Source of the DNA: Tribonema minus
Taxonomy: Eukaryota > Sar > Xanthophyceae > Tribonematales > Tribonemataceae
Assembly (NCBI GenBank): GCA_017506865.1
Contig: JAFCMP010000108.1
Coordinates: 124,001 to 188,000, forward strand
Direction: 5' to 3'
Length of the DNA: 64,000 bases
Below, in pieces: positions 9,854 to 45,900 of the stretch. A model generated the notes under the pieces. That model saw nothing but the letters and a program-made list of their open reading frames with translations, was not told the DNA's origin and made no database searches. Numbering within the stretch: position 1 is the first letter of the stretch; every line of letters begins with the position of its first letter. The position numbers and the translations under genes were made by a program.

Positions 9854-12800
9854 TGTACTTTTTATTAATTCTCGCTCAGGGCGCGAAAAAGCCCAGATGA
9901 TTGGCATCTAGCTGTAAGGAATCTACATGTCGTATGACAGTCTGAAAGTGTCGCAACGACAACCACTCAAACGCCGCCGCCGCCAAATGGCATATCGGGG
10001 TCCTCCCCTACGTCCTCCTCCATGTGCCCCCCCCCCCTGGATTCTGCCATGTGTGTCATGACACGGCCAGAGTACGCCATGTGGAGCGCTGCCGACAGTG
10101 CCGAGCGTAAGCGCGCCAGGGCGATGCCCTTGAGAGCTTTAGGGCGCGCTCCTCCGGGCACTGACATCCTGCTGGCATACTCCGTCGCCACAGCCTCCAG
10201 CAGCTTCCGCCCCTGCTCCCCGATGCTGCCAAATGACCCTATTGCCAATGTGGCAAGTTTGTAGCAATTCTGATCATAATGACCAGAATAGTGGGTAGTC
10301 TTGGCGGCCTCTTGGTCGCGGCAGCATCGCTCGGGGTCTGCTGCAGTCTTCGCCGCCCGCGACGCCACCTGTGCCTCGAAGCAGGTAACGTCCACCATGA
10401 GCGGTAGGTGGCGTGTCGGGTCGTCGTAGCCGGTCACCGGGAAGGCGTCGGCAGGCAGCACGATGTCCATCCTGCGACTCCCCGGCGGCCCGGCGGACCC
10501 CAGAAACGGCGTGTAGTCCTCGTCCACCAGTCCCGTTTTGAGGTATTGCCGCAGGAGGCGCTGCGTGGCCCTCTTGACGCTATTGTGGACAATGGTGTCG
10601 TGCGCCTTGACGCGTGGCGCTTGACACAGCCGTGCATGCAGGGTGCCGCCCGGCGACTTCCCGCACAGCTTGCAGCCTGCCGTCTGCTCCTCTACTCCGA
10701 TGGCGCGTTTGACGGCCAGCTGCCAGGATAGGCCATCGAACGAAGCCGTTGTGGAGTACATGGGCTCGTTGAGGAATGCCATGCCGATCGAGTGCATGTG
10801 GCGCTGCGACCGGAATCGAGCAAGTGCTTGCGTGCGTTGCGTGCCCTGCGGCAGCTGTTGCAGGTCCGCCTCCACCTTATCTGCAAGCTCGGTAGCGACG
10901 GCATCTGCAAGCGCACTCTGATTGGGGCGCTTCAGGCTACACTGCAACTGCAGAGCACTGGCGTCAAGTACGCAAGCAGCATCCGCACCAGTGCCACCAC
11001 CTGCTGTCGGCCGCAGCGGCGGCTGCTGCGTAGGTGGTTGCTGCTGCAGTGGCGTTAGCGCTGGTGGCAGTATATGTTCCAGCTTGTCACCTGTTGCTGC
11101 ACGTAGAGATGTGGCAGCTGTGGCGATCGTCCGCATGAGGGGCAGGCGCGCCACCTCTGCTGCTGCTGCGCCTTGTAGCATTGCTGGTGTGGAACGCGCA
11201 GCGCCTGCATTGACGGCTGCCGCTGCTGCGTGCGCTGGTGCTGCAGCTGTGCCGCCTGCCGTTGCTGCTGCTGCCAGTGGTGTTGCTGCTGCCGCAGGTG
11301 TTGGTGCAGCACCTGCCGCATTGGCCGCTGCCACCGCCATTGCCGCTGTCGCAGCCGGCACGTTTGCGGCGCCGCCTGCCGACGCTGCTCCTGTTGCAGG
11401 TGCTGCAGCAGCGCTTAGGCTAGTAGGGCCTGTAGCAGCTGTATTGCCTATGCCCGCAGCCGCTGCTGTTGATGCTGCAGTTAGTGATGCCGCCGAGGCC
11501 ACTTGAGGTGCAACATGTGCTGCCGCTGCTGCAGCAGCCTCTGATGCTGGAGCAGCTGCTGCTGCCGCCGCTGCTGCTGCCGCCGGAGTAGTTGCGCCGT
11601 GCGCCGCCGCTGCTGCTGCTGCCGCTGGTGCCGCCTGTGCTGCCGCCGCGGCCCCTGATCCAGCGGCAGCTGCGTCGTGTGTTGCCGGAATGGCTGCGCC
11701 ATAAGCGCGGCCAGCCGCTGATGCAGTTGCCGCTGCCGGAGCGGTCGCGCCTCCACTGGCAACCGCCGCTGCCGCTGTAACAGTTGCCGCTGCTGATGCT
11801 GCTGGTGCTGGTGCTGCTGCCGCTGCTGCCGGTGTCGTTTGTGTTGCCGCATCCTCAGCAGCGTTGTCTGCAGCCGCTTGAGGAGCCGCCTGCTGCAGCA
11901 CCCCCGCCCATCCAGAGAGTGCTGGTTGCAGCGCTTGCAACGTGCCCGCCACATACGCAGCATCAGCGATGTCGCAGGCGCTGGTAATGCCAAGGCCGCC
12001 ATGCCGTGTTGGCAGTCGCGCTTGCTGTAAGGCTGGGCCGTGCGCTGCCAGATGGAAGTGGGCCCCACTTTGCTCAAACTGGCGCCAGGTCTGCCCTGGT
12101 GGCTGCAGGCCCATTGAGTGCTCAAGCACCCACTGCGTGACCCGATCCCACTCCTTGGCGGCTGGCGCTGTCTGCGTAGTGGGAATGGTGCGCAGGCAGT
12201 ACGTCATGCGAGGCACCACGCAGTAGCGCAGTAACCTGAACATAGCCCTCGGAGATGTCAGGCACGCGCATCGCTCTGCAAATCGAGCCCCTGCCCCGCC
12301 TGCACCCGCTTCCCTGCGCAGCCATGCGTCCACAAAGCTGCTGTGGCCCACCGGCACCCCCAGCAACACAGCTCCACGGTTCTGATTTTCATCCGTATCC
12401 CCCAGTAGCTGAACGCCCAGCTGCTGCAGCAGTTGCCGCTCGTGGTCTGTCACCACATGCCCCCTGCCAGGCAGCGCGCGTGACTTGGTGAGGTTTAGCT
12501 CCAGCCCCACCTCCGCAAAGTGTTGTTTGAGCTGCGCCACCGCCTGTATGTCATCCTGAGTCAGCGTGCAAGCGCCTGTTCGGACGTTGGCATCGTCCAT
12601 GTAGGCGCCCATCCGCCTCCGCGCGCGCTGCGCAGCCGCCGCCTCATTGAACCGTTTCAAGCACTGAGCAATGGCGCCGCAGAAGAGCATCGGTGCCGCG
12701 GGGTCCCCCTGCTTAAACCCGCGCTGAGACATGATGATGCGCGTGGAGCCGTCAACGTGCTGGAACAGCAGGCGTGGCCGAGTGCGAACGTATGTGCCGA

Positions 12801-15398
12801 TGAAGTAGTCGAGGAAGTCCGGCAGCTGTGCTGCTACCCATTCCGCTGCCGCCAGGACGAACACCATGTTGAAGGCATTCTTGAGGTCCAGCATGAACTG
12901 CCAGTGACCGAGCTCATACGCGAGTTTGCCGGCCATGGCCGCTTTCTCCGCTCCTGCTGAGACGGCTACCCCATACTGCCCGTCTGGCTCAAGGAGCTCC
13001 GCCAGGAAGTCTTTGCGGTCTGCCACGTACACCGAAGTGCATAGTCGCTGCAGCACCTCGCCGCAAACGATGGGCCGCTGCTTAGCTGTACCATCTTCCT
13101 GTTGTTCTGCAAGTGGCGTCAGGCGCCCCGCGCCATGCAACTGCCAGAAGGCATCCGGCAGCCGCGCAGCCTCCCGCATAACGGTCTGAAGCCACCGTGT
13201 GAGGACAGCAGCAAACTCATGCCGTCCACAGCTTGTGCGTAGCGCATCCTGCAGGTGGCTGTAGCGCAGCCCCGATGGGCCTGCTCCACTGTAAGGGCTT
13301 GCTCGCTGGATGAGCTTGGCAACCGACTCTGGCTCAATTCCCTCCCCCTGTAACAGGCTGAGTTCTGCTGGCATGTCGGCTGCTTTCGCCACAAGCTGAT
13401 CAACCATGCCGGATAGCTCATGGAGTTGTTCCCCTGGCGCAGCGGGGGGGTGTTTGGACTGCATGGCGGCAAAGCAGTCATCATCAGGTATCGCCACCGT
13501 TTTGGGCTGAAGGAAACGCGCTGCCTGCTGTAGCCCCCCCCGTGTGCCCATGCACTGTAGGACGTAGGCGTTGATCGCTGCCTCCGTTTGCTGGCGCGCG
13601 CGCCAGCGCCGGTGCGCACGCGCGTGTGCGAGGAGCGCTGGCACCAACCGGTCAAGCTCACCGCGTGCCAACATTCTGATTCTGTCGGAGCGAGTGATGC
13701 CAGGTGCGCCATCGGTGGAGGTGATGAGTGATGGCATGAGGTGGTGTAGAATCGTGGATCTTTGCAGTCGCTGCACCCGCCCTGCGGAATCTGGCTCCCG
13801 CGCCGCATTGACGAACATCGTCATTGTGTGTGCCAACAGATGTGTTGCTGCGTTCTCCAGTGCAGCTCCCACATAGCGACGATTGCGTGGTCTAGCAAGG
13901 CTTCTAGTTGTCGCGAACTGCAGCTTGCACAGCTCATCGAGGCTGATGCTGTCAAGCACTGCTGCGACTGCGGGGGTTGAGATGGTCCACGTGAAAAGCC
14001 CACCTGCCCCACCTGCTGCGCCTGCAGGGCCTGGCGCTGCCGCTGCTGTCGCCGCACCTGCCGCTCTGGGGCCCCCTCCGCCGCCGCCGCGGCCGCCACG
14101 ACCACAGCCTCGTCCGCCGCTGTCGCTGCTGCGACCGCTGCCACGGCCACCGCGGCCGTTTTGAGTTCGCGCGCCACTGCCGCTGTTGCTAGCACCGCCG
14201 CTGCGGCTGCTGGCATCACTGCTGCGGCCGTTGCCAGCGCCGCTGTCCTTAGTACCGGCTGCACTGCCGCCGCCGGCACCGCTGCTGCTGCCGCCTCCGG
14301 TTCTGCTGCCGCTAGTCGCTCTGCTACTGCTGACGTCTGCATCATTGCTGCCGCTGCGAACGCGTCCTCCATTGCCACGTCCGCGCCCTCCACTGCGACC
14401 CCGACCCCCTCGTGTAGCACTGCTGCCCCCGCGTTCCGGCCTCTTTGAGCTGCCGGAGGAGCTGCTGCCACCAGCCTGAGCAGCAGGTGCCTGCTGCGCG
14501 TGCGCTGGTCCCTTTGCGTAGGGGTTGCCGATGGGTGTGCACGCCGGTTGCTGCTGTGGCAGCGACGTGGTAGCTGTTGCCGTCGATGCATCAGGTGCTA
14601 GCGGTGCTGCTGATGCTGTTGTTGACAATGTTGCCGCCACTGCAGCGGGTGAAGTGATAGGCCTGCATTTGCGGCAGTGCTTGCCCGCGCTGGCATCGCT
14701 GCTGTCCACTCTGAATGTCTTGTTGGCATGAAACAGGTTTTTGCACAAGGCACACTCGGTGTAGATGGTTAGCAAGTGCGACGTGCTGAGGTCGGAGCGC
14801 TCCAGGAACGTTGTTGCTGTCCCACTGTGGTGTTTGCGCTGGTGCTTCGCCGCGATGTGGGCGTTTAACCTCTGCTGTAACGAGAGCAGCGACATGCCCT
14901 TCTTCACCACGAGGTCGCATAAGTTGCACTTGTACTCCGGGTCCGCACTGCCTCCACCTCCAGCTTCGTCGTCTAGCATCAGACGTTGCTGTTCCAGACT
15001 GTTATGACCTGTTCTAGAGCGCTTGACTGCACTTTGCCCGCCCGTGTGCTCCCCTTCGCCTGTTTGATCGGAAATTGACCAACCGTCATTCTGTACCCTC
15101 TTGCGTTTGTGCGCTGCGCGTCCGTCTCCAGTTGCTCTGCTGCTGCCACTCGTGCCATCGTCCTGTTGACAAGCGCCATTGCCATCTGCAGCACTGGTGC
15201 TAATATCCTGCGCTTGTGCGCACGCTAGATCGGATTCCTTGCATTTCTGCGCTGATTCAGAGTTGGCAATACGGGCCTCCCGCCGCCGCCATGATATTCT
15301 TTTCATGATCTCTGCTACGCCATGGTGCTACATGCTACAGCTACATACCTATCCGCATCTCGTGGAGGCCTACTAGATTCCTTGTAGTAGGTACTTGA
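9854..15398 (-). mobile_element. Complete-looking non-LTR retrotransposon (LINE family A)
   Basis: On the minus strand this comprises a short 5' region (about 15398-15307), one 1779-codon open frame (15306-9967), and a 3' UTR of about 110 bp. The 3' UTR carries a GGC-rich run, the hairpin-forming GGGCTTTTTCGCGCCC and the terminal ATTAATAAAAAGTACA, which includes an AATAAA signal. It has no long terminal repeats of its own; the flanking similar sequences are separate family-B copies. Single-ORF layout with an N-terminal zinc finger and a C-terminal nuclease is that of early-branching LINEs (R2-like, REL-endonuclease type). Confidence 0.8.
9967..15306 (-). CDS. LINE polyprotein: zinc finger, reverse transcriptase, restriction-like endonuclease
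   Basis: An uninterrupted protein of 1779 residues. A C2H2 finger lies at C127-C130-H150-H155, followed by a second Cys cluster (C185, C188, C211, C214), then an Arg/Gly/Ser-rich segment. The reverse transcriptase follows, at roughly residues 620-1010: SGAGPSGLRYSHL, motif A FMLDLKNAFN, motif B FKQGDPAAPMLF, motif C GAYMDDANV near residue 900, and GLELNLTKSRALPG. A 280-residue Ala/Pro-rich spacer (about 11050-11900) precedes a CCHC knuckle, CKLCGKSPGGTLHARLC (near residue 1543), and a PD-(D/E)XK-like nuclease region (RRMDIVLP, then LMVDVTCFEA, residues about 1600-1660). In R2-type elements these parts bind the target, nick it and prime reverse transcription from it. The YMDD active site differs from the FADD usual in LINEs. 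Family placement is by layout and is tentative. Confidence 0.8.
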   Translation of the reverse strand: MKRISWRRREARIANSESAQKCKESDLACAQAQDISTSAADGNGACQQDDGTSGSSRATGDGRAAHKRKRVQNDGWSISDQTGEGEHTGGQSAVKRSRTGHNSLEQQRLMLDDEAGGGGSADPEYKCNLCDLVVKKGMSLLSLQQRLNAHIAAKHQRKHHSGTATTFLERSDLSTSHLLTIYTECALCKNLFHANKTFRVDSSDASAGKHCRKCRPITSPAAVAATLSTTASAAPLAPDASTATATTSLPQQQPACTPIGNPYAKGPAHAQQAPAAQAGGSSSSGSSKRPERGGSSATRGGRGRSGGRGRGNGGRVRSGSNDADVSSSRATSGSRTGGGSSSGAGGGSAAGTKDSGAGNGRSSDASSRSGGASNSGSGARTQNGRGGRGSGRSSDSGGRGCGRGGRGGGGGGPRAAGAATAAAAPGPAGAAGGAGGLFTWTISTPAVAAVLDSISLDELCKLQFATTRSLARPRNRRYVGAALENAATHLLAHTMTMFVNAAREPDSAGRVQRLQRSTILHHLMPSLITSTDGAPGITRSDRIRMLARGELDRLVPALLAHARAHRRWRARQQTEAAINAYVLQCMGTRGGLQQAARFLQPKTVAIPDDDCFAAMQSKHPPAAPGEQLHELSGMVDQLVAKAADMPAELSLLQGEGIEPESVAKLIQRASPYSGAGPSGLRYSHLQDALRTSCGRHEFAAVLTRWLQTVMREAARLPDAFWQLHGAGRLTPLAEQQEDGTAKQRPIVCGEVLQRLCTSVYVADRKDFLAELLEPDGQYGVAVSAGAEKAAMAGKLAYELGHWQFMLDLKNAFNMVFVLAAAEWVAAQLPDFLDYFIGTYVRTRPRLLFQHVDGSTRIIMSQRGFKQGDPAAPMLFCGAIAQCLKRFNEAAAAQRARRRMGAYMDDANVRTGACTLTQDDIQAVAQLKQHFAEVGLELNLTKSRALPGRGHVVTDHERQLLQQLGVQLLGDTDENQNRGAVLLGVPVGHSSFVDAWLRREAGAGGAGARFAERCACLTSPRAMFRLLRYCVVPRMTYCLRTIPTTQTAPAAKEWDRVTQWVLEHSMGLQPPGQTWRQFEQSGAHFHLAAHGPALQQARLPTRHGGLGITSACDIADAAYVAGTLQALQPALSGWAGVLQQAAPQAAADNAAEDAATQTTPAAAAAAPAPAASAAATVTAAAAVASGGATAPAAATASAAGRAYGAAIPATHDAAAAGSGAAAAAQAAPAAAAAAAAHGATTPAAAAAAAAAAAPASEAAAAAAAHVAPQVASAASLTAASTAAAAGIGNTAATGPTSLSAAAAPATGAASAGGAANVPAATAAMAVAAANAAGAAPTPAAAATPLAAAATAGGTAAAPAHAAAAAVNAGAARSTPAMLQGAAAAEVARLPLMRTIATAATSLRAATGDKLEHILPPALTPLQQQPPTQQPPLRPTAGGGTGADAACVLDASALQLQCSLKRPNQSALADAVATELADKVEADLQQLPQGTQRTQALARFRSQRHMHSIGMAFLNEPMYSTTASFDGLSWQLAVKRAIGVEEQTAGCKLCGKSPGGTLHARLCQAPRVKAHDTIVHNSVKRATQRLLRQYLKTGLVDEDYTPFLGSAGPPGSRRMDIVLPADAFPVTGYDDPTRHLPLMVDVTCFEAQVASRAAKTAADPERCCRDQEAAKTTHYSGHYDQNCYKLATLAIGSFGSIGEQGRKLLEAVATEYASRMSVPGGARPKALKGIALARLRSALSAALHMAYSGRVMTHMAESRGGGHMEEDVGEDPDMPFGGGGV

Positions 15399-18245: not shown

Positions 18246-21200
18246 ATGGCGCAAACAGGCACGGGAGAAGTCGGCTTTAGGGCGATCGTGCTTGGATGCG
18301 CCCAAGACGCTGGGATACCCTCCATTGGCTGCAGCTGCTCCCGCTGCAGCCATGCTAGGGCCCTGGGCAGCGCCTACAAAGACGGCATGGTGGCTTGCCT
18401 GGGGCTCGTAGACGATGGCGATAGGAAAGCCTTCCTGGTGGATGCGACTCCGGATATAGGCTCCCAGCTGTGGGAGCTACAGCAAGCAATACCAGCCAAG
18501 TCTGATGCGTCTAGTGACGACAGGGATGGCGGCAGCAGCGATGGACCGGGCAACGTGCTTGGAGGGATATTGCTGACGCACGCTCATATGGGCCACTACT
18601 CGGGCCTGCTGCAACTGGGCAAGGAGGCGCTGGGCGCGGCTCAGGTGCCGGTGTTTTGCACTGCTTCCATGGCCGCGTTCTTACACGAAAACCTACCGTG
18701 GAGTCTGCTGGTGGAAGGCAACAGCATCGTCATCACGGAACTCACGCCGGGAAGCGCCTACAGGCTCTGCACAGGGCTGTGTGTTACGCCAATATCCGTG
18801 CCGCACCGGGACGAGATCAGCGATACTGTGGCGATGCTCTTCAGCTGCGGCGATCAGAGCAAGCTGCTGTACTGCCCTGATACAAACGGCTGGGGCGAGG
18901 GGTGGGGCAAGGGCATTCGCGCGTGGTGCGACGAGGTGGAGGTCGCTGTCGTCGACGGGACATTCTACAGGTAAGCTACAGTAGCAGGGACATCTGTGAC
19001 AGTCATAGTCACGCTGCATCCAGTCACCGCTCAATGTTAAGTTGTAGTTCTCATGCCACCTGCAAGCGTCATGCACTGACAAAACATGTCTGCACAAACT
19101 CCCTGTCTTCGAGCAGTATCTGAAGTGCTATCGATTACATTGTAGTTTATCAACACTCACGCCTGTCACAAACCGTGCCTGCAGGCTGTTGGTATTTTGT
19201 ACCACCGTCCGGTGATAATCAAATGCCGCCGCTACTACACAACAACAAGTGCAACTTCCGTCAATGTTGCCGCACCGCTACTATGTACACGTTAACAAAT
19301 GCAACTCTCCGTCATTGTTGGCTTGCATCACATGCTCCGCACAGCATGGCAATGGCAACATTCTATGTCTTGATAAGTCACGATAATATTTGCTCATGAC
19401 TACACATTGAGCTGATCTTGTGGGGCGCCTAGCGCTTGACAAGGCGGTGAATAAGTTCAACTGGTCTCACTGCTATGGTGTGTAAGCGTTCCCTGTGTTG
19501 CCACGACTCAAACGCGTTAAGCTGCGCAAAGCGCGCTTCGCTCTTCGACACGCTGCATAGTGGCCGTCCCAACTTCAACAGTCATCAATCAGCTCCACGC
19601 ATGGGGAGCTTGCAGCATCTGACACCACTTCGTGCTGCCCATTTCCCCGCGACAACTGCTGAACTTCAACAACGATAATCTGCTACGCACATGGGGATGG
19701 TCACAGCATCTGACAGCGCTTTCTACTGCCCCTTTGATTCCCGGTGACCATTTCTGAGCAGTGCGGACGAGCTCCCAGCAGGGCGCAGCATCGCCGACAT
19801 CCCCCACCCCCTCATCCCCGACACGGTGGCACGGCTCAGCGGCTGCAGCGCTCAGGTCGTCTTCACGCACCTCAACCACACCAACCCCGTCGCGACGGCC
19901 GCCTCCGAGCAACGACGCTCAGTAACAGACGCCGGCATGTCTGTAGCGGAGTTTGGCATGCAGTGGTGCTTCAGCGCCCCCGCGCAGTCGTCCATGACGG
20001 CGGCGGAAGTCACTGCGGCGGCGGCGGTGGATGCGGCGGCGGCGGCGCCTGCTGCGGCGGCGGCGGCCGTCGGTGGCGGCGAAACCATTGTCGATTGGGA
20101 GGTATGCTTGAGACGGAGTCACCGCATGTAGGGTTGCGTAGCTGCGAACTTTGGCATTTTGCGCGACGCCTCAACAAGTGAGTGTTAGTGCCTGCAGCCG
20201 GTCATGTTCATTTTGCGCGTTTATCCACAGTGCTCAATCGTGCTGCTGTGGCTGACTGCAGCTCACTGTACGCAATGCTGCATGGGTATTCTCTTTGCCT
20301 GAGCATCAATCACCAGATACTGCCACTGGGCTCATAGACACCTGGCGGCTGCTGCTGCTTGCTGCACCAACGCCCATAATCAGTGCAGCAGCCAGGCACT
20401 GTCACTGTCAAGCAAGTGCTGATGATAATTCACACAATGTGACTTGTATGTTTGCACGGCAGGCGGCTGTGGAGCAATGCGCTGGCGACGAGGAGTTTCT
20501 GCGAGAGCTGCTGCTGGACTTGTGGAATGAGCTGCAGGAACACTTGGAGGAGGTACGATAACTTCAAGTCTCAACGCTCAAGTCTTGAAGTTGTGTGCAC
20601 CCATGTTTGTAAACGACAACGAGCACAGCGACTTCCTCTGGTCCATGCTGATGTCAGGCAAAGGTAGGCTGTCACTGACTTTTGTGTAGAAGAGGCAATC
20701 TGCACCCGCAACGAAGGGGGTGTGTTGTCAGTGTTCCCGTATGCGATGCGTCGTCATATCATACCAGAGCATTCGTTTCTGAGGCAAGGATGGTGCCACT
20801 GTGTACTCTTCAGCTGTACATGACAGTACGTACATGTCTTGTTGTACTATATACCACGACATACATGCATTGACATGCATTACATACTACAGCCCTGCTG
20901 CCGCTAGTAGTACACATGTACTCTGAAGCTGTACACGACAGTACGTGCTAGCAGTACACAACAGTACACCCTGTACAAGCAGCTGCTGCGTGTGCTTCTC
21001 TTTAGAGTCGCGATGCCGATGTGTATTGCTGATTTACTGTGACGTGTCAACATCCACAAGCAACTTCATCTGTACAACACTTGTGCTTAGCATGGGGTGA
21101 ATTGCACCATCAAGGTTTGGTGGCACGTCTAACCCTAATCCTGACTCATATCAGCACAGCATAGTCGGCAGCAAGCATTAGGTGCTTGCAGCGGCGGTGA

Positions 21201-22118
21201 GAAACATGTGGCTGTGAGTCTCATGCCATCCATCTACTTCACACAAAACAGCGCAGTCAGCGCAGTCCATCCTTTGATGTCAGATGCTGTGGTAGTGCAG
21301 ACAGTGCTGCTGTGCCTGGTGGTATATCACCAGCTTAGGGTTAGGGCTAGGCTTAGACAGCAGAAGGTTTCACCATCACGTGTGGACACGAGTAGGTTGA
21401 GATGACGTAGTGGACAGTAGACGATGCCACAATATAGCAGGGTGGCATCGCAATGCAGGCTGGTGATGTCACGTTCCCAGCAAGTAGCTGCAAGCAAATG
21501 GCGGCAAAGACAACCATGTACACTTAATCAGGAAGGTCACAGCATTATGGTATGATGAGGTGACCGACACAGCCAGGTCAGCTCACCCTTTCTTCCAAGA
21601 ACCAGGATACAAATTGAGCAAACGATGTGTTGACAGTGCAGCATTGCTCACGATGTTGGCTCACGATGTTGGCGCAATCATCACGCTCGCAGCTTTAGTT
21701 GAGTCTGCATCTGACTGGTGTGCACTGTGTGCTACATAATCTTCACCATGACCGAGAGGGCACCACTTGTGTTTGTTTAAGTTGCGTCTGAACGCTGTGC
21801 ACTTGCTCTGCTGACCCCTGCCCCCCTTCCCCCCTACCCCTAACCCCCCTCTCGCCTCCGCAGCTCAGCACCACCATCCCGGAGGGCAACATTGAGCGCA
21901 GCGGCCGCATCGGACACTCCATCAAGGGCGCTGCCGCCAACCTCATGTGCTACCGGCTCAAAGACGCGGCACTGGCCATGGAGAGAGTAGGTCACGCTGC
22001 TGCCGCTAAGGCTAAACCCCCCGATCAGCTCCAGGCAGACCTGGAGGCAACGTACGAAGCGCTCAAGGGGGAGGCGGCTACCTACGAGGCGTATCTCAAG
22101 ACGCTCGAGCTGCTGTGA
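18246..22118 (+). CDS. PqqB-like metallo-beta-lactamase-fold hydrolase fused to an HPt domain
   Basis: Exons 18246-18970, 19762-20101, 20463-20552 and 21864-22118 join in phase with GT-AG introns to give 469 residues. Residues 1-360 match PqqB-like hydrolases: LGCAQDAGIPSIGC, metal-site ILLTHAHMGHYSGL (H112, H114, H117), VVDGTFYR followed by ADELPAGR, DIPHPLIPDT, VFTHLNHTNP and VAEFGM. After an Ala-rich linker the protein runs into VDWEAAVEQCAGDEEFLREL and, in the last exon, GRIGHSIKGAAANL, which is the phospho-acceptor helix of histidine phosphotransfer domains (predicted phospho-His 403). The junction between exons 2 and 3 falls inside the first HPt helix in phase 0, so the HPt cannot easily be a separate gene. 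The HxHxGH form and the PqqB-like C-terminus do not prove a role in PQQ synthesis; the substrate is unknown. Exon 4 lies 1.3 kb downstream of exon 3. Confidence 0.75.
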
Positions 22119-22822
22119 CGGCGGCGCGCCGCTGCGATGCGGCGAACGCGGGCAGAGAAGATGGCCCGGGGGGGAGGGGGGGGGAGGGGCTGCTGCTGCA
22201 GCACGGGCGCTGCCGCTGCTGCAGCACGGGTGCTGCCGCTGCTGCTGCTTCTGCACGACAAAGGCGCGCCAGCCTCTGCCGCCTCCACGCTTCCATGTTG
22301 GACAAATGCGCGCTCACAAGTGCGTCGCACGCGCGCGATGGCGCGCAGTCAGAGATACCACACGCGTACGCGTGATCGCGCATGCGCGCTGCATGCATGC
22401 GTGAGTCGGATCTGACCGGCCGTCACCTGCAACTGCTAAGCACGGGGCAGTAGGTGGCATGTAATGCCGACATCGGCTGGCAGCATGGGCATTGTTTCCA
22501 CTATCACCGTAGCTCCGGCGGCAGCCGCCGTTGTGTGTGTATGGGGGGGGGGGGGGGGGGGCTGCTGCCGCCTTTGGGCTGGCAGAGTCGCTGAATTTGG
22601 GCCATTGTTTCCACGAACACTGTAGCACTGGCGGCGGCCACCCCTATGGGGGGGGGGGGGGCTGCTGCCACCTTTGCTGCTGGCAGGAACAGCAGCGCTG
22701 CTGCCGGGCGGCGGCGGCGCCACCTGTGGCACCGCCAGCGCAACAGCGGCAGCAGCGCTCAAGCTGCGCGCACAACTCAACGTATGCATCCCCGCATATG
22801 CCGGACATGTGTCCTCCGTGCG
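22119..22822. other. Convergent intergenic spacer with a G-run tandem repeat
   Basis: Lies between the HPt stop (22118) and the LACTB2 stop (22823). A degenerate direct repeat of about 125 bp occurs twice, near 22487-22585 and 22600-22690. Each has GGGCATTGTTTCCAC or similar, a GGCGGC stretch, and TATGGGGGG extended into a long G-run ending in CTGCTGCC. CAG/CTG-rich flanks follow. No gene is seen. Confidence 0.5.
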
Positions 22823-25220
22823 TCACTGCCGCAGCAGCGCGTACGCGCGTGGCACGCCGCGTACGCCGCCGACGCGCCCCTCCGCGCGCAGCTTGCGCAG
22901 GTGCTGCTCCACGTTGTGGTGCGCGCTGACGAGCACCGCCAGCGGCAGCGCTCCGTAAATACGGCGCGTTATCTGCAGCGAAGACAGTGCGCTCGCTGCG
23001 CCGCCGCTGCTGCTGCCGCCGCTGCTGCTGCTGCCGCCGCTGCTGCTGCTGCCGCTGAGCGCGGCTACGATCTGCGACTCGCGCTCGTTGCGGTGGCGGA
23101 TGTATTGTTGGATTTTGCGTGCGGCGTCGGCGACGGCGGGGCCGTGGCCAGGGTAAATGACAGTGCACAGCTGCTTATCTTGCGACGCGTCGCTTGCTGC
23201 GCTGGTTGCGCTGCTGTCTTGCGTGTTGGTGTCTGGTGGAGATGCGCAGAGCCGTGCCACATTGTTGAGCGTTGCCATGTAGGAGGTGACGTCGTCGAAA
23301 ACCGCCGTCCCGCACCCTGCAGCGGCAGCCAGAGCTCATGCTGATGGGTTGATCGCTGCATCTTGTTGTGCAGAGTGCTTGCAGTTTGAAGCTGATGTGA
23401 GGGTTCACAACTTGAGGTACATGAATTGACCAGCTTCACAAGAAGAGTCTGGCGGGTGTTAGAGCTGCACACTGGGGATGTGAATCCACAGGCAAAGCGT
23501 ACGTGACAGAAGGCACCTGAGCTTCGGGCATGTTACAGAGGCCGCAAAGCAGGAAAGGGCATTGGGCATTTGGCAGTTGGCCCCGCTGTGCTCACAGCAA
23601 AGCGCAACACATCATTACTTTGCGCAAGCCCTTGTAGCTGTGCATGTTGATGATGTGCTATGCATCACTGCTCAGGCAAGGCTTGCTCAGGGCTCCCAAA
23701 AGCACAGTCCGAATGGCACAGCCCATGATGACGCATGAAAGCTCTTGCCAAAGCAGGCTCACCACATCATTTTGCACACCCATTCACATGTACCCAAGAG
23801 CTTGATGGTTGTAGAGGACTGTCACAGGTTGTGTACCCTCTCGTGTCTCAACCAGGTATGCATGCACCGACACACATGTTATGTATGCTCAGGTACGTAG
23901 CCACACGAGCCCATCAGTGCTCACCCAGAATCATGTCGCCAGCAAACAGCGCGCCCTCCTCCTGCAGCACAAACGACACGTGGTCGCTGGTGTGACCGGG
24001 CGTGCGCAGCGCGCGCAGCGTGGCGCCCTGCGTGGCAAACACCTGCCCATCCGCAATGTCGCTGTACTCGAAGGTGCAAGGGGCACGTTTGTCAGGGACA
24101 TCTTTCATCTTGTACACGGGGACAGGGCCCAGGGCCTGCAGAATGTCGGGCACGCCCAGGATGTGATCGGCGTGATGGTGCTGTATGTCGTGAACGGGAA
24201 AGGGGGGGGGGGGGGAAGAGGCGGGCGAAGGGGAGTGGGGGGGGCTTTAAGGATGCTGTGTGGCTGAGGTGTGACAGCTGCAAAGTCATTGTAAGAGAGA
24301 GCGGAGCGTCAGCTCGCCATCGCGACGGAGCAGTCAAGAAAGATGGAGGCGCGCGTAGCCAATTGACTCAAGCACACTCTCGCATTGAAATTTGAGGGGT
24401 TTTGAGCTCTGTATCATGATAGGGATGGCACATCTGCAGCAGCTTTGACTCGTTCAAAGGAGCTGCTCATAGCAACCTGATTAAACTGAAACAATCTCAT
24501 GCTTTGCCTCAGTGTTGATGAAATCAACAACTGATTTTCAATGGCTGGCGCACTCCATGACTGGTCTGCAAAATTGAGGGTCTATCCATCGTGCATTCTA
24601 GTGTACACTTTTGACCTTGTGCATTCAACAGCCCTGACACAAATTTACACCAGGCTCACCGTCAGAAGAATGCCTTCGAGCCCTGTGCAGCCCACCTCCT
24701 TCATGACACTTGTGAGCAGAGGTATGTAGCTCTTCTTCCCCTCTCCCGTGTCTATGAGCCACCTTCGCCCTCCGGTTCCGACCAGGTATGTGTTGGTGCC
24801 CTGTCAACGGCAGGAAAGTGCAGTCGTCTCAGGTTTACAGCCTGTATGAAATTTATTCATCAGCATGCAATTTTGTGTGAATTGTGGAAGCCATTGGTGA
24901 AGTGATCAATGCACTTTGAACTGATCACGTGTGCAGTGTTGATTTTGCTGATTAATGGACAGGCACTGTTGTTCGCGGATGCGAGTCATTGCTCAATTGC
25001 CGACATGTATGCACCGAACGTCCTACTTTAAATCTCGCATAAATTTGGCGCGCGTACGTGCCTGAAGTGTATGAGATCCAGGGTTGAGGCCGTTGATCAT
25101 CACGACTCCTGTGGATTCACGCTTCCATGTTGGCACGTAAGGAAGCCCGCGTGGAACCTTATTGCCACCCTTGTTCACCAACTCGAGGAGTTTGTGAAAG
25201 GCTGGACTGGTGCGTAGCAT
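22823..25220 (-). CDS. LACTB2: LACTB2-type metallo-beta-lactamase-fold endoribonuclease
   Basis: Minus-strand exons 25220-25062, 24800-24660, 24180-23925 and 23316-22823 join in phase to give 349 residues (human LACTB2 is 288). LACTB2 is a single-strand endoribonuclease of mitochondria. Family landmarks in order: INGLNPGSHTLQ joined to GTNTYLVGTGGRRWLIDTGE; the metal motif ILLT joined to HHHADHILGVPDIL; GATLRALRTPGHTSDHVSF; GALFAGDMILG; GTAVFDDVTSYMATL; VIYPGHGP; KIQQYIRHRNERESQI; HLRKLRAEGRV. Extra length is a Ser/Gly-rich insert near 23000-23060. The first intron appears to use a GC donor (CAG, then GCACGT at 25061), since the in-frame junction falls exactly there and no GT is available. 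The start at 25220 (MLRTSPAFHKLLEL) is the first in-frame Met; further upstream exons are possible. It converges on the PqqB-like/HPt gene, also of metallo-beta-lactamase fold. Confidence 0.85.
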
Positions 25221-40815: not shown

Positions 40816-42939
40816 CTATCCGACCTCGCTGATGCTCAGCTCCCACAGGCCCGTCATGGCCTGCGCCATGTGCTGCGCGCGCTCAAAGTACGGCGTGTCG
40901 CTCTCATTGTACGTCATGCAGTTGGCAAAGACCAGCAGCAGCGCGTCTCGCACGCCCGCAGCGCTGTCGAAGCGCATCGCCGTCACTTGCGAGAATGACA
41001 TGGGGGTGGCGATTGCGCGGCTGTAGCCGGGGGCTACGTCGTCCGACACTGGCTCCTCGAAGAACTGCGATGTTGCATGGGAAGTGGAGAAGGCGGCATT
41101 ATGTCAGCTGCTGCTCAGCTGCGCACACCGTGAATTGTGTCTCAGCATGAAGGCATACGATGCATCATTTGCGGAATGCAAGCTACTGTAGTGCCGACTG
41201 CGCAGCCATCGTCAAGGCTCACTGCCCAATCAAGTCGTGCATACGAGCCTTGTCGCAGTTGCAAGCAGGTGTGTGCGAAGAAGAAATCAAGATCAAGAAC
41301 CCGATGGTTACATCCACCACTGCTGTGACCTCAATGACAGTGCGCTAGCATGTAGCAAGACTGTGACTTTGGATGAATATAGACCAGCCACATCGAATCG
41401 CTGACGCAGGCCCTGCGCAACCCTAAACCCAACCCTAAGGGAGGGCAGCCAAGCAAGCACAATATGGTGCGAAAGCACCAAACGACGAGTTGCCAGCAAG
41501 CACTTTGCTGCTGTTAGGGATGAGCCAACACCAACCAAGGGACTCTATCCAACTCACTGACTCATACTCACCACTTCAGCGTCCAAAGCCCGCAGCTCGC
41601 GCAGCACGTTCTTGACAGCTGCCTGCAGCTGCCGCTTATTAGGGGGCTCAATCCACTGCGCTTGAGCAACCTCCATCACCAGAGGCAGCACCCCATGGTC
41701 CTGTAATCGGCGCCGCTGCTTGGCCAGCATGCGCTCAATCAGCGGGCCCACTGTCCCCTCCGCAGCAGCGATGCCGCCGCCGCTGCCGCTGCTGCTGCCG
41801 TGTCCATTTGTCGCCGCCGCTTTTCGCGCGGCAGCGCCGTTGCTGCTGGCTCGGGATGACGTGCGTGTCCTGCGCGATGACTGAGACAAAGCCCAAAGCA
41901 TTCGTACATGTGTGAGGTGTGAGCAACAGTAGCGTTCGGCACATGTGCAGAGGACAATCACAAAGCACTTCACAGTGCCTCAAGGAGCGGCACAAACAGA
42001 TTGCTGTTGTATCACTAGAGCATACAGGCGGCTGCGCGGTAATGTCCAGAACAAAAGACACTCACAATGCGGCAGCGTCCTACTGTGCCTAGCCACTCTT
42101 GCTATACCAAACTCTCGCCCACACCACCATTCAATTGCATGAGTACCGCTATTGCAGCACCGAAGCTGCAACAACAAAGATAACATTGCGCACATGCTGG
42201 CTGCATACATACTTACCCGTTTGGCAGGCGCATGTGCCGCCTCGCTGTCGCTCCCATCGCTGGACGCGCCGCCACCGCCGCCGCCACCGCCGCCGCTGCT
42301 GCTGTCGCTCCCCTCCGCCCCCTGCTCCTCATCATCCTCCTCATACAATGTGGCAGCAGCACGCGGCCGCCGTTCCGCCACACGCGGCGACGCACGCGTG
42401 TTCATCCCGTGCCGCCCCTTGTTTCTAGGGGCAGGACTCGCAGCAGCGGTCGCACGCCGCTTGCCAGTGCCGCTGCTCTGGCGCGGGCGTTTAGCCGGCG
42501 GTGAGCGCGCTTCGGGCTCGCTGCTGCTGCTGCTGCCGCCGCCGCCGCTGCCGCCACCGCTGCTGCTGCTGTCACCGCCGCTCTCTGCGTGTCTATCTTG
42601 ATGGCCGTTTGCAGCGCTGCTGCGGCGTGTGGCGTACGCCAGAGGCATGCTGCCCTGCGACTGCGAGCGCAGCGCGCGCCTGGCAACCGCCGCCGCGCTT
42701 CCGTGCGGAGCTGCAGCAGTTGCGGCGGCGGCGACGCGCGGTGAGCGGCGCGTGGAGCGCTGCTGCGTGGCCGTGCGCGGTGTAGCCGCGGCACCGTGCC
42801 TGCTGCTGCTGCCGCCGCTGTCGCTGCCTCCGCTGGCGCTGCTGCTGGGGGTGCCCTCCCCTTGCTCGCCCTCATATGCGTCTTCGGATGCTGCCGCCAG
42901 CGAAAAGCGTCGCGCGGAGGAGCGGAGGCCAGCAATGAC

Positions 42940-42983
<44 letters not shown>

Positions 42984-45900
42984 TGCCGCCTCCACCCCGC
43001 CTGCCGCCCCGGTCGCCGCTGCCGCTGTTGGCTCGCGAGCTGCGCCGCTGCGCAGCGCCGCCGCCATTGGCTGCTGCCGCCGCCGCCTGAATGGCCGCAT
43101 GGGGCAGCCTCAGCTTGACGCCACCGCCGCCTCCATTGCCGTTGGCGGTGCTGCCACTGCGCCTTTGCTGACTCCGCTGCCTAAGCCACTGCTCAGAGGG
43201 GCCTGCCGCAGCATCGCTGTCGATACTCGCTGCGGTGCGCCTGCGCTTACTGCGCCGCCGCGTCGCGCCGTCCGAGCTGCCGCCGTCGCTGCTGCCGTCG
43301 CCACCATTCCGCTCATCCTCCTCCGATGCGCTGCTCTCACCGTACCTGTGCGTACGTGGCTTGCGCTCGCGCAGCGCACGCTGCGGGCCCTGCGCCGCTG
43401 CCGCCGCCACCGCTGCCGCCGTCGCCGGTGCGCTGTCCGCGCCGCCGCTGCTGCGCAGGCTCAGGACTCTGTCGCTGCTGCGCGTGTGCCGCGTGACAGG
43501 CAGCGCCGCTGTGGCCGCAGTTTCGCCGCGCAGCGTGATGCGCATCGTTGCGCGTGCGGCCGGCGGCGAGCGCGCAGCACCGGCGGCGCCGGCGGCACCA
43601 GCGGCAGCGGCGCGCGGGCGTCTCGCTTGCGCTGCTGCCGCCGCTGGCGCTGCCGCAGCGCTCCCCTCCGCTTCGCGCAGCCGGTCTCTGCCGCGGTGCA
43701 GCGCCTGCGTCGCGCGGATGCTGCGCCGCAGCGGCGTGCTGGCAGTTACAGCTGTGCCGCCGCCGCCGGCGGCAGCGGCGCTCGGGTCGGTGTCGCGCCA
43801 CAGCACGGCGCCGAAGACTTCGGCGAGCGCTGAAGCGAGGCGCTGGCTCTGCCGCGCGATGCCGCTATCTTCAAGGTTGAACTTGAGGCAGTTGACGATG
43901 ATGAGATGGCAGTCGTGCGCGAGCGCGCGCGCGCCGCGGTAGTAGTTCCCCTCCAAGCGGCGCAGGATGAGCGCGAGGTCCATGGGCAGCGCGACAGTTG
44001 CGCCGTAACCGTACACCGCGGCCAGATCCACGGGGGCCGCGAAGGACGCCGCGAAGCGCTCCTTGGAGAGTGCCTCCAGCGCCGCGCCTAAGCGGCGCCG
44101 ATCTTCAACTTGAAGTTCTGGCACTGCGGCGGCGACCTCCGCCGCCGTGTTGGTCGCTGCGTCGATGACGCGAACCTCCCATGGGCTGATGCGCTGCATG
44201 CTGGGCTCAAAGTCGGACTGGAGTTGCTCCTCCGGGGTGGGGTCCCACTCAACCTCGAGGCACTCCCAGGGGCTGTTGGACCAGCACGTGGGGTCGCTGA
44301 ATGGGGCGCAGAGCGAAACAGTAAAGGTGGAAAGGCGCGCAGAGAGACAGCATGTACGATCGTGAGTCGACTTAAACTTGATGCATGATTACTTTAAGAA
44401 TACTTCAAAGTACGCTGTCGCAGAGTGTGTGCAGCGTTTATGCAGAAAGGTTGTCTGTGCTGCTTTGGCAGCGAAGCGCACTTTTCAACTCCCCCTTATT
44501 GCAGATTGGGCATCATGTCGCACTGCGGCAAGTACAGTTTGTGTTATGGTTAGGGTTGGCGCTTGATCTCTGCGCTCATGGGGCAAATGGGGCAAGTTCA
44601 AGTTCAACTTCCGCGTACCTCAGCGACACCGAGCTGACGGTGCCGCGTGACACTGTCACTTGGCCGTCCGCGCTGTCCGCCTCTGGCGCAAACTCGGCCT
44701 CCAGTCGCACGCCCGCGTGCCACGGCACCGCCATCACCGCCTCATACACCTCGCGCAGCACCAGAAACTCGGGCAAGTTGCAGTTGCGGAGGTACACGCT
44801 GAAGGTCATGGGCGCGGGGGGCGCGACAAAGGCCGAGGGGGGTTGCAGCCCCCCGTTTAGGGGGTCGTTTGCGGGGGGTTTGGTGGGGTCCAGCAGGCCC
44901 ACCACTTCCAGCACCACGCAGACGAGGACGGACCTGCGGCAGCGGTGGCGGTGGCGCGTGGGAGAAGTTGAGGTTGGTGGCAGCAGTTGAGGTTTGTGTG
45001 TGGTGAGGGCTGTGCGTACTGAACGTTGCAAACATTAAGCAGAGGACGGACCTACCGCGCAGTGCGTCGGCAGCGGTGGAGGGTTGTGATGGGGCTGCGT
45101 GAGGGTATGGGGGTAGTACCTATGCACATGTGTTGGAGGCACCAATGGGTGTGAGACAACACGCATAAATACCAAACACAGACCTTAACCCCAGCCCAAT
45201 ATCAACTCTCAGCGGCGTGGAGTCCCCTGATGCATGCACGCGCATCCTCGAATGGCTTACCGGGTTCTGTCCGTGTGCTTTTCTGTATAAGTCGCCTACG
45301 TCTAATTCTGAAAATATCACCGTCCTCCATCATGTACATACATGGTCACCCATACATGCACACTTGAACATATACAATATACCACAAAGACATGAGCATT
45401 ACATACCTGCACTCCTGCCACTCCTCCCCGCTGGGGAACCCATACTCCAGGCGCCTCACCACGCACGCCGCCACCTGGCGCCCCAGCAGCGTCTGCCACG
45501 GCGGCGGCGTGTTTTGCGGGAACAGCTGCAGCTGATTGCTGTGCCCCTGGGGTATGTATACCAGCTGATCCCCGAGCTGGGGCGCATATACGCTGACGCC
45601 TATCAGGGGCCCCCTCGTTTCCCCCTGCAACCACCCCCTGTCCACAGGCAGGCCGTTGGGGATGCTGGGGTGCAGGGGAGAGTCACTGTGTGAAGTTGGC
45701 GCAGCTGCCGCCAGCTCCCCGGGGGTTCGCCGCTGTTAAGAAATGGCCGCACAAGAAAGGCGCAGAGTCAGGGTGAGGGTTAGGGTGCAACGCCTACTCG
45801 AGCATGAAGATCGTCTTGTCAGGGTATTCGATACACCTGACTTCGACCCTAATCTCTGTCTGCAGAGTGTACCTAAGTGTGTATCACGCGTCTTACTGAG

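Follow-up and report, generated by a model that had tools for sequence, protein, structure and literature searches.

Histidine phosphotransfer (HPt) domains normally relay phosphate between receiver domains, accepting it on the histidine of an HxxKG motif, and are usually intermediates of a relay and not its outputs. To our knowledge, the enzymes that act as outputs of phosphorelays all hang on receiver domains; the RegA phosphodiesterase, for one, is a receiver-enzyme fusion. In algae, 2c-Cyclop is reported to unite an opsin, a kinase, a receiver and a guanylyl cyclase in one protein (PMC6284317).

Among metallo-beta-lactamase (MBL) fold proteins, PqqB structures (4z5y, 4z7r) are the best solved-structure matches by sequence to the MBL half of the protein described here (4z7r, E 9.5e-10), and the PhnP family, which carries the canonical metal motif, is a weaker relation. 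The histidines H93 and H269 are reported to line the cavity of PqqB (PMC2294125), and neither PqqB nor PhnP is mentioned in the searched text of a review of MBL-fold enzymes (PMC10340364). Here we describe a locus in the alga Tribonema minus, within a 64,000-nucleotide stretch of contig JAFCMP010000108.1 (C108; hereafter the window), at which an MBL-fold domain of this kind and an HPt domain are predicted to share one polypeptide.

Gene model and the exon 2/3 junction

The fused gene lies on the forward strand and consists of four exons and three GT-AG introns; the exons total 1410 nt and close in frame to give 469 residues, ordered from the N-terminus as MBL-fold domain, Ala-rich linker and HPt domain with His403. 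Exon 1 (18246–18970) supplies the start codon and the greater share of the MBL-fold domain, up to residue 241 and part of 242, including the CSCSRC cysteines and the motif THAHMGH; after intron 1 (18971–19761, 791 nt), exon 2 (19762–20101) encodes the end of that domain (FTHLNHTNP), the linker and the first HPt residues (IVDWE). Intron 2 (20102–20462, 361 nt) leads to exon 3 (20463–20552), which encodes the first part of the HPt (AAVEQCAGDEEFLRELLLDLWNELQEHLEE), and intron 3 (20553–21863, 1311 nt) to exon 4 (21864–22118), which encodes the remainder with the phospho-acceptor motif GHSIKGAAANL (His403) and the stop codon. Rebuilding the model reproduced the coordinates, phase and splice borders (18970/19762, 20101/20463, 20552/21864) of a preliminary description of this DNA, and its proposed acceptor, the histidine of GHSIKGAAANL, is indeed residue 403 of the 469.

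The linker (about residues 313–350, roughly 40 in all) is Ala-rich and of low complexity. Codons of the MBL part have a third-position GC of 0.747 and those of the HPt part 0.769, and total GC is 0.499, 0.526 and 0.503 in introns 1, 2 and 3, respectively. The pentamer TGTAA is a polyadenylation motif of chlorophytes; a candidate signal of this form lies at 22460–22464 (forward strand), 342 nt past the stop codon, and is statistically unremarkable at the window's density of 0.64 per kb. The gene was located only on C108, in one genome (assembly size 158 Mb), and a genome-wide protein search likewise placed MBL exons on C108 only.

Because the Pfam Hpt match begins at residue 370, downstream of the exon 2/3 junction, Pfam is blind to that junction, which is the weak point of the model. 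A second HPt gene of the same genome, on contig C146, has its intron five codons further on: it reads VVVDWTMALEQ unbroken where the fused gene needs the exon 2/3 splice (TIVDWE/AAVEQ), and the fused gene reads EQCAGDEEF within one exon where the C146 gene needs a splice of its own (EQ/CGGDEEF). In the C146 gene, whose exon model was drawn by eye, a low-complexity exon ending in VVVDWTMALEQ is spliced to CGGDEEFLKELL; in the fused gene, TIVDWE is followed by the splice and then by AAVEQCAGDEEFLREL. Across the junction the two genes are identical at 25 of 37 residues, without a gap. A scan of the window, both strands included, gave 6088 GT positions with six open phase-0 codons before them; among these the donor at 20101 alone reaches a BLOSUM62 score of 23 against VVVDWT, the runner-up scoring 15. 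The tail of exon 2 aligns in register with the N-terminal part of the HPt on C146, so that HPt coding is already under way in exon 2, and the splice to exon 3 is the reading that accounts for it. The comparison with C146 thus bears out the earlier proposal that the two domains share a frame and that the HPt crosses this junction.

We conclude that this is very probably one algal nuclear gene encoding one protein, with the architecture MBL, linker and HPt. The locus could instead hold two genes with two transcripts, an MBL gene ending in intron 2 and an HPt transcribed on its own from the in-frame ATG at 20448–20450 (forward strand), 15 nt upstream of exon 3 (MFARQAAVEQ...). The product of that ATG (MFARQAAVEQCAGDEEF...) scores 42.1 bits on Pfam Hpt, over the cut-off, as compared to 38.8 bits in the fusion. 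This arrangement is nonetheless improbable: it is opposed by the in-register match of the exon 2 tail, at the best of the 6088 donors, by the stop codon that exon 2 meets nine codons into intron 2 when read unspliced (VCLRRSHRM, then stop), and by the lack of the chlorophyte motif TGTAA on the forward strand of intron 2 (introns 1 and 3 hold one each). We regard an assembly chimera or bacterial contamination as extremely unlikely. The relatives of the enzyme half found here are prokaryotic and the assembly seems to contain near-duplicate contigs, yet the fused gene requires introns and is flanked by eukaryotic open reading frames (ORFs), and because homology spans the exon 2/3 junction, a chimera would have to break within an intron and still keep both phase and homology. 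The ORFs scanned in the window were 18 of the 40 that reach 220 residues and two shorter ones, and those flanking the fused gene gave the eukaryotic matches TTI1, Surp, DRY_EERY, PHD, WD40 and bromodomain; these, with a reverse transcriptase, mark the window as nuclear DNA rather than contaminating bacterial sequence. The chlorophyll a/b-binding family has 92 matches in the assembly, which points to a photosynthetic eukaryote.

The window and the assembly hold several other features. A convergent neighbour outside the fusion (22826–24246, reverse strand) contains MBL and BLACT_WH pieces (Lactamase_B, 2.2e-10; BLACT_WH, 1.8e-10), and from this domain pair we take it to be LACTB2-like; two MBL-superfamily genes thus stand tail to tail. 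An 802-aa ORF at 41983–44388 (reverse strand) shows an unusual-looking pair, in which a bromodomain (1.9e-13) is accompanied by ARF_AD, the ancillary domain of auxin response factors (1.1e-6, barely over the cut-off). A 1786-aa open frame at 9970–15327 (reverse strand) includes an RVT_1 reverse transcriptase (1.7e-10) and is perhaps a LINE-like element. Elsewhere, the contig pairs C90/C179, C1/C79 and C70/C489 give parallel matches at similar spacing, which suggests retained haplotypes.

The metallo-beta-lactamase half and its prokaryotic family

The MBL half matches Lactamase_B_2 (PF12706) over residues 104–277 with 65.8 bits, as compared to a Pfam cut-off of 27 (E 5.2e-18, hmmscan). A scan of prokaryote genomes found at least 541 confirmed relatives, and the 80 kept for comparison are 36–47% identical to the algal MBL over nearly the whole domain; they come from Chloroflexota, Planctomycetota, Bacteroidota, Acidobacteriota, Bacillota and others, and one is encoded on a Halostella plasmid. 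Across these 80, 29 columns are invariant, and the alga retains every one of them. The metal motif singled out in the preliminary description, THAHMGH, is present, but it departs from the canonical HxHxDH in having Gly in place of Asp. This Gly is the rule in its own family and not damage: the HAHxGH Gly occurs in 80/80 kept relatives, and, as 74 of these carry the search pattern that covers HAHxGH, the fair test is the other six, all of which have it as well. We infer that one metal site is intact, and the enzyme is predicted to be active.

The label PqqB-like, given to the protein at the outset, fits, but the protein is not PqqB. It scores 109.4 bits on TIGR02108, under the equivalog cut-off of 245 that a Leisingera PqqB control passes with 385.6, and its THAHMGH differs from the TNGDIDH of that control. 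TIGR02108 scores for three relatives, two of them bacterial and one archaeal, are 114.5, 131 and 127.3 bits, and the relatives L014, L043 and L012 pass no NCBIfam cut-off. A PqqE-model search gave no match in the alga and below-cut-off matches in 14/14 control genomes; such a search is insensitive to intron-split genes, and introns probably hide them here, because the alga must have radical-SAM genes and yet showed no match. A PqqC search matched neither the alga nor any control genome. With the PqqE search weak and the PqqC search uninformative, it is the score and the motif that make the case against the PQQ pathway.

PqqB and the algal protein have in common the N-terminal cysteines and the HLNxTNP motif, and none of the PqqB sequences compared has a C-terminal HPt. 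By reading of motifs, PqqB H93 and H269 correspond to algal H117 and H278, and the alga additionally has H112, H114 and H187. The algal protein matches the PhnP family (TIGR03307; 3g1p, 6b9v) weakly, with 26.5 bits against a cut-off of 272. A structural model of L014, an Anaerolineales relative (mean pLDDT 95.2), lies nearest to PqqB structures (TM 0.79–0.84 by query length), with PhnP-family structures as the second-nearest fold (TM 0.68–0.70). Taken on sequence and fold, the algal MBL half is best placed in a sister family of PqqB that is related also to PhnP (AQDxGxP...HAHxGH).

The alga has 157 residues beyond residue 312, made up of the linker and the HPt, whereas the kept members of this AQDxGxP/HAHxGH family end with the single domain: the C-terminus is closed in 79 of them, and not one of these 79 extends beyond the MBL domain by over 20 residues; as far as the data reach, the HPt would thus have been added in the algal lineage. 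A Pfam scan of ten of the 11 longest kept relatives (L023 being left out) found MBL domains and one NESP55 match below cut-off, and no second domain over cut-off. Rarer prokaryotic MBL-HPt fusions may exist beyond the 80 relatives kept of at least 541. The viral contigs scanned held neither relatives nor an MBL-HPt combination. In a tree the alga groups with 16 rows (13 Chloroflexota and 3 Pseudomonadota) at weak support (84/31), only a hint that the MBL half may have been transferred from this Chloroflexota-rich group.

Genomic neighbours of the prokaryotic genes were judged uninformative as to substrate. We scanned 79 of 92 same-strand adjacent ORFs (44 upstream and 35 downstream, 13 being left out), and among the neighbour families listed (the best 25 of 84 and the best 25 of 83) the commonest were a Na+/H+ antiporter upstream (4/44) and a phage integrase downstream (4/35), no family exceeding these counts on either side. 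In three gammaproteobacterial loci (L030, L039 and L045) the PqqB-like gene lies directly 3' of a same-strand 375-aa ORF that is 93% alike among the three; that of L030 belongs to the type II/IV secretion ATPases, which 3 of the 44 upstream genes match.

The HPt half and its possible partners

The HPt half matches Hpt (PF01627) over residues 370–453 with 38.8 bits, over the Pfam cut-off of 24.6 (E 1.1e-9, hmmscan), and exon 4 alone reaches 28.9 bits, also over the cut-off, in a six-frame genome search. The match contains HxxKG as GHSIKGAA, with H403 as the acceptor, so that the phospho-acceptor motif named in the preliminary description now stands within a domain scoring over its curated cut-off. 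From these features we predict, with fair assurance, a working phosphorelay HPt.

Family and protein searches detected two HPt loci in the genome, the fused gene and the gene on C146 (L011), which agrees with published counts that give most algae one or two HPts and Chlamydomonas one (PMC10338860). The two HPts are 52% identical and have in common a VDW...EQC.GDEEF start and an H..KGAA.NLMC phospho-acceptor; upstream, the C146 HPt has a low-complexity exon with no MBL match, whereas the fused HPt has the MBL domain. At the C146 locus (L011, 7390–7900) the 3' half of the HPt exon recurs downstream of that exon in several tandem copies, about 111 bp apart.

Possible His-Asp partners for the HPt are present in the genome: 49 of 51 scored receiver matches, among 87 candidates, and 21 of 22 HisKA matches are over cut-off, in counts that are affected by genes split by introns and inflated by near-duplicate contigs. 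A profile of DUF3707 (pherophorin) matched neither the alga nor any control.

A candidate link between phosphorelay and enzyme

We favour a reading in which an HPt related to that on C146 became joined to a bacterial-type MBL enzyme and exchanges phosphate with receiver domains, so that receiver docking or phosphorylation of His403 would set the location or activity of the enzyme. An enzyme that retains the invariant residues of its family would then be joined, through some 40 Ala-rich linker residues, to one of the two visible hubs of the relay. A protein in which a competent MBL enzyme has a phosphorylatable HPt on a tether, with the phosphorelay controlling the enzyme's place or activity, is the best explanation that we can offer and, in our estimate, has slightly the better of an even chance. 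Phosphorelay control of activity or location is plausible; that the enzyme is a regulated output of the relay we put forward tentatively, at somewhat below even chances.

Several other relations between the two domains can be envisaged. Tight allostery is argued against by the low complexity of the linker, and it is quite unlikely that the HPt is a terminal output whose phosphorylation at His403, or docking to a receiver, directly switches the metal enzyme; in its boldest form the MBL would be a built-in phosphohistidine phosphatase draining its own relay, conceivable because PhnP-type phosphodiesterases are near in fold space. The direction might also be reversed, the MBL binding or turning over a metabolite and thereby gating the competition of the tethered HPt with the other HPt for receivers, which would make the enzyme a metabolite sensor that serves the relay. 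HPts are generally relay intermediates, the flexible-looking linker suits a tethered partner, and with two HPts detected in all, the relay as a whole could be tuned by tethering one of them; retention of 29/29 family-invariant residues is nevertheless expected of an enzyme and unnecessary for a mere sensor, and we consider this reading unlikely, if less so than the direct switch. Between these two in likelihood is a fusion without regulation, in which the domains share a polypeptide for co-expression or stability and work separately. It would account for the low-complexity linker and for relatives that lack a C-terminal domain (79/79 with a closed C-terminus, from the 80 kept of at least 541); the conserved motifs of both domains are equally expected under it, and nothing that we saw strongly opposes it.

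If the favoured reading, control of a tethered enzyme by the relay, is true, the joining of an MBL enzyme to one of two detected HPts would couple two-component signalling to an enzyme in an unusually direct way, and the partners of the relay would offer a way into a large MBL family whose function our searches did not find assigned. Each part of the protein is known, and the combination appears new as far as the kept prokaryotic relatives, the scanned viral contigs and the literature show: a literature search that covered few subscription journals found no report of an HPt-MBL or PqqB-HPt fusion, including in algae, Chlamydomonas and Volvox. Other algae may carry the fusion, and databases may already list it. 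In 2c-Cyclop, in RegA and in the fused protein alike, an enzyme is covalently linked to a two-component module; in 2c-Cyclop and RegA, however, the enzyme sits on a receiver (Asp) domain, whereas in the fused protein predicted here the MBL enzyme sits on an HPt (His) domain.
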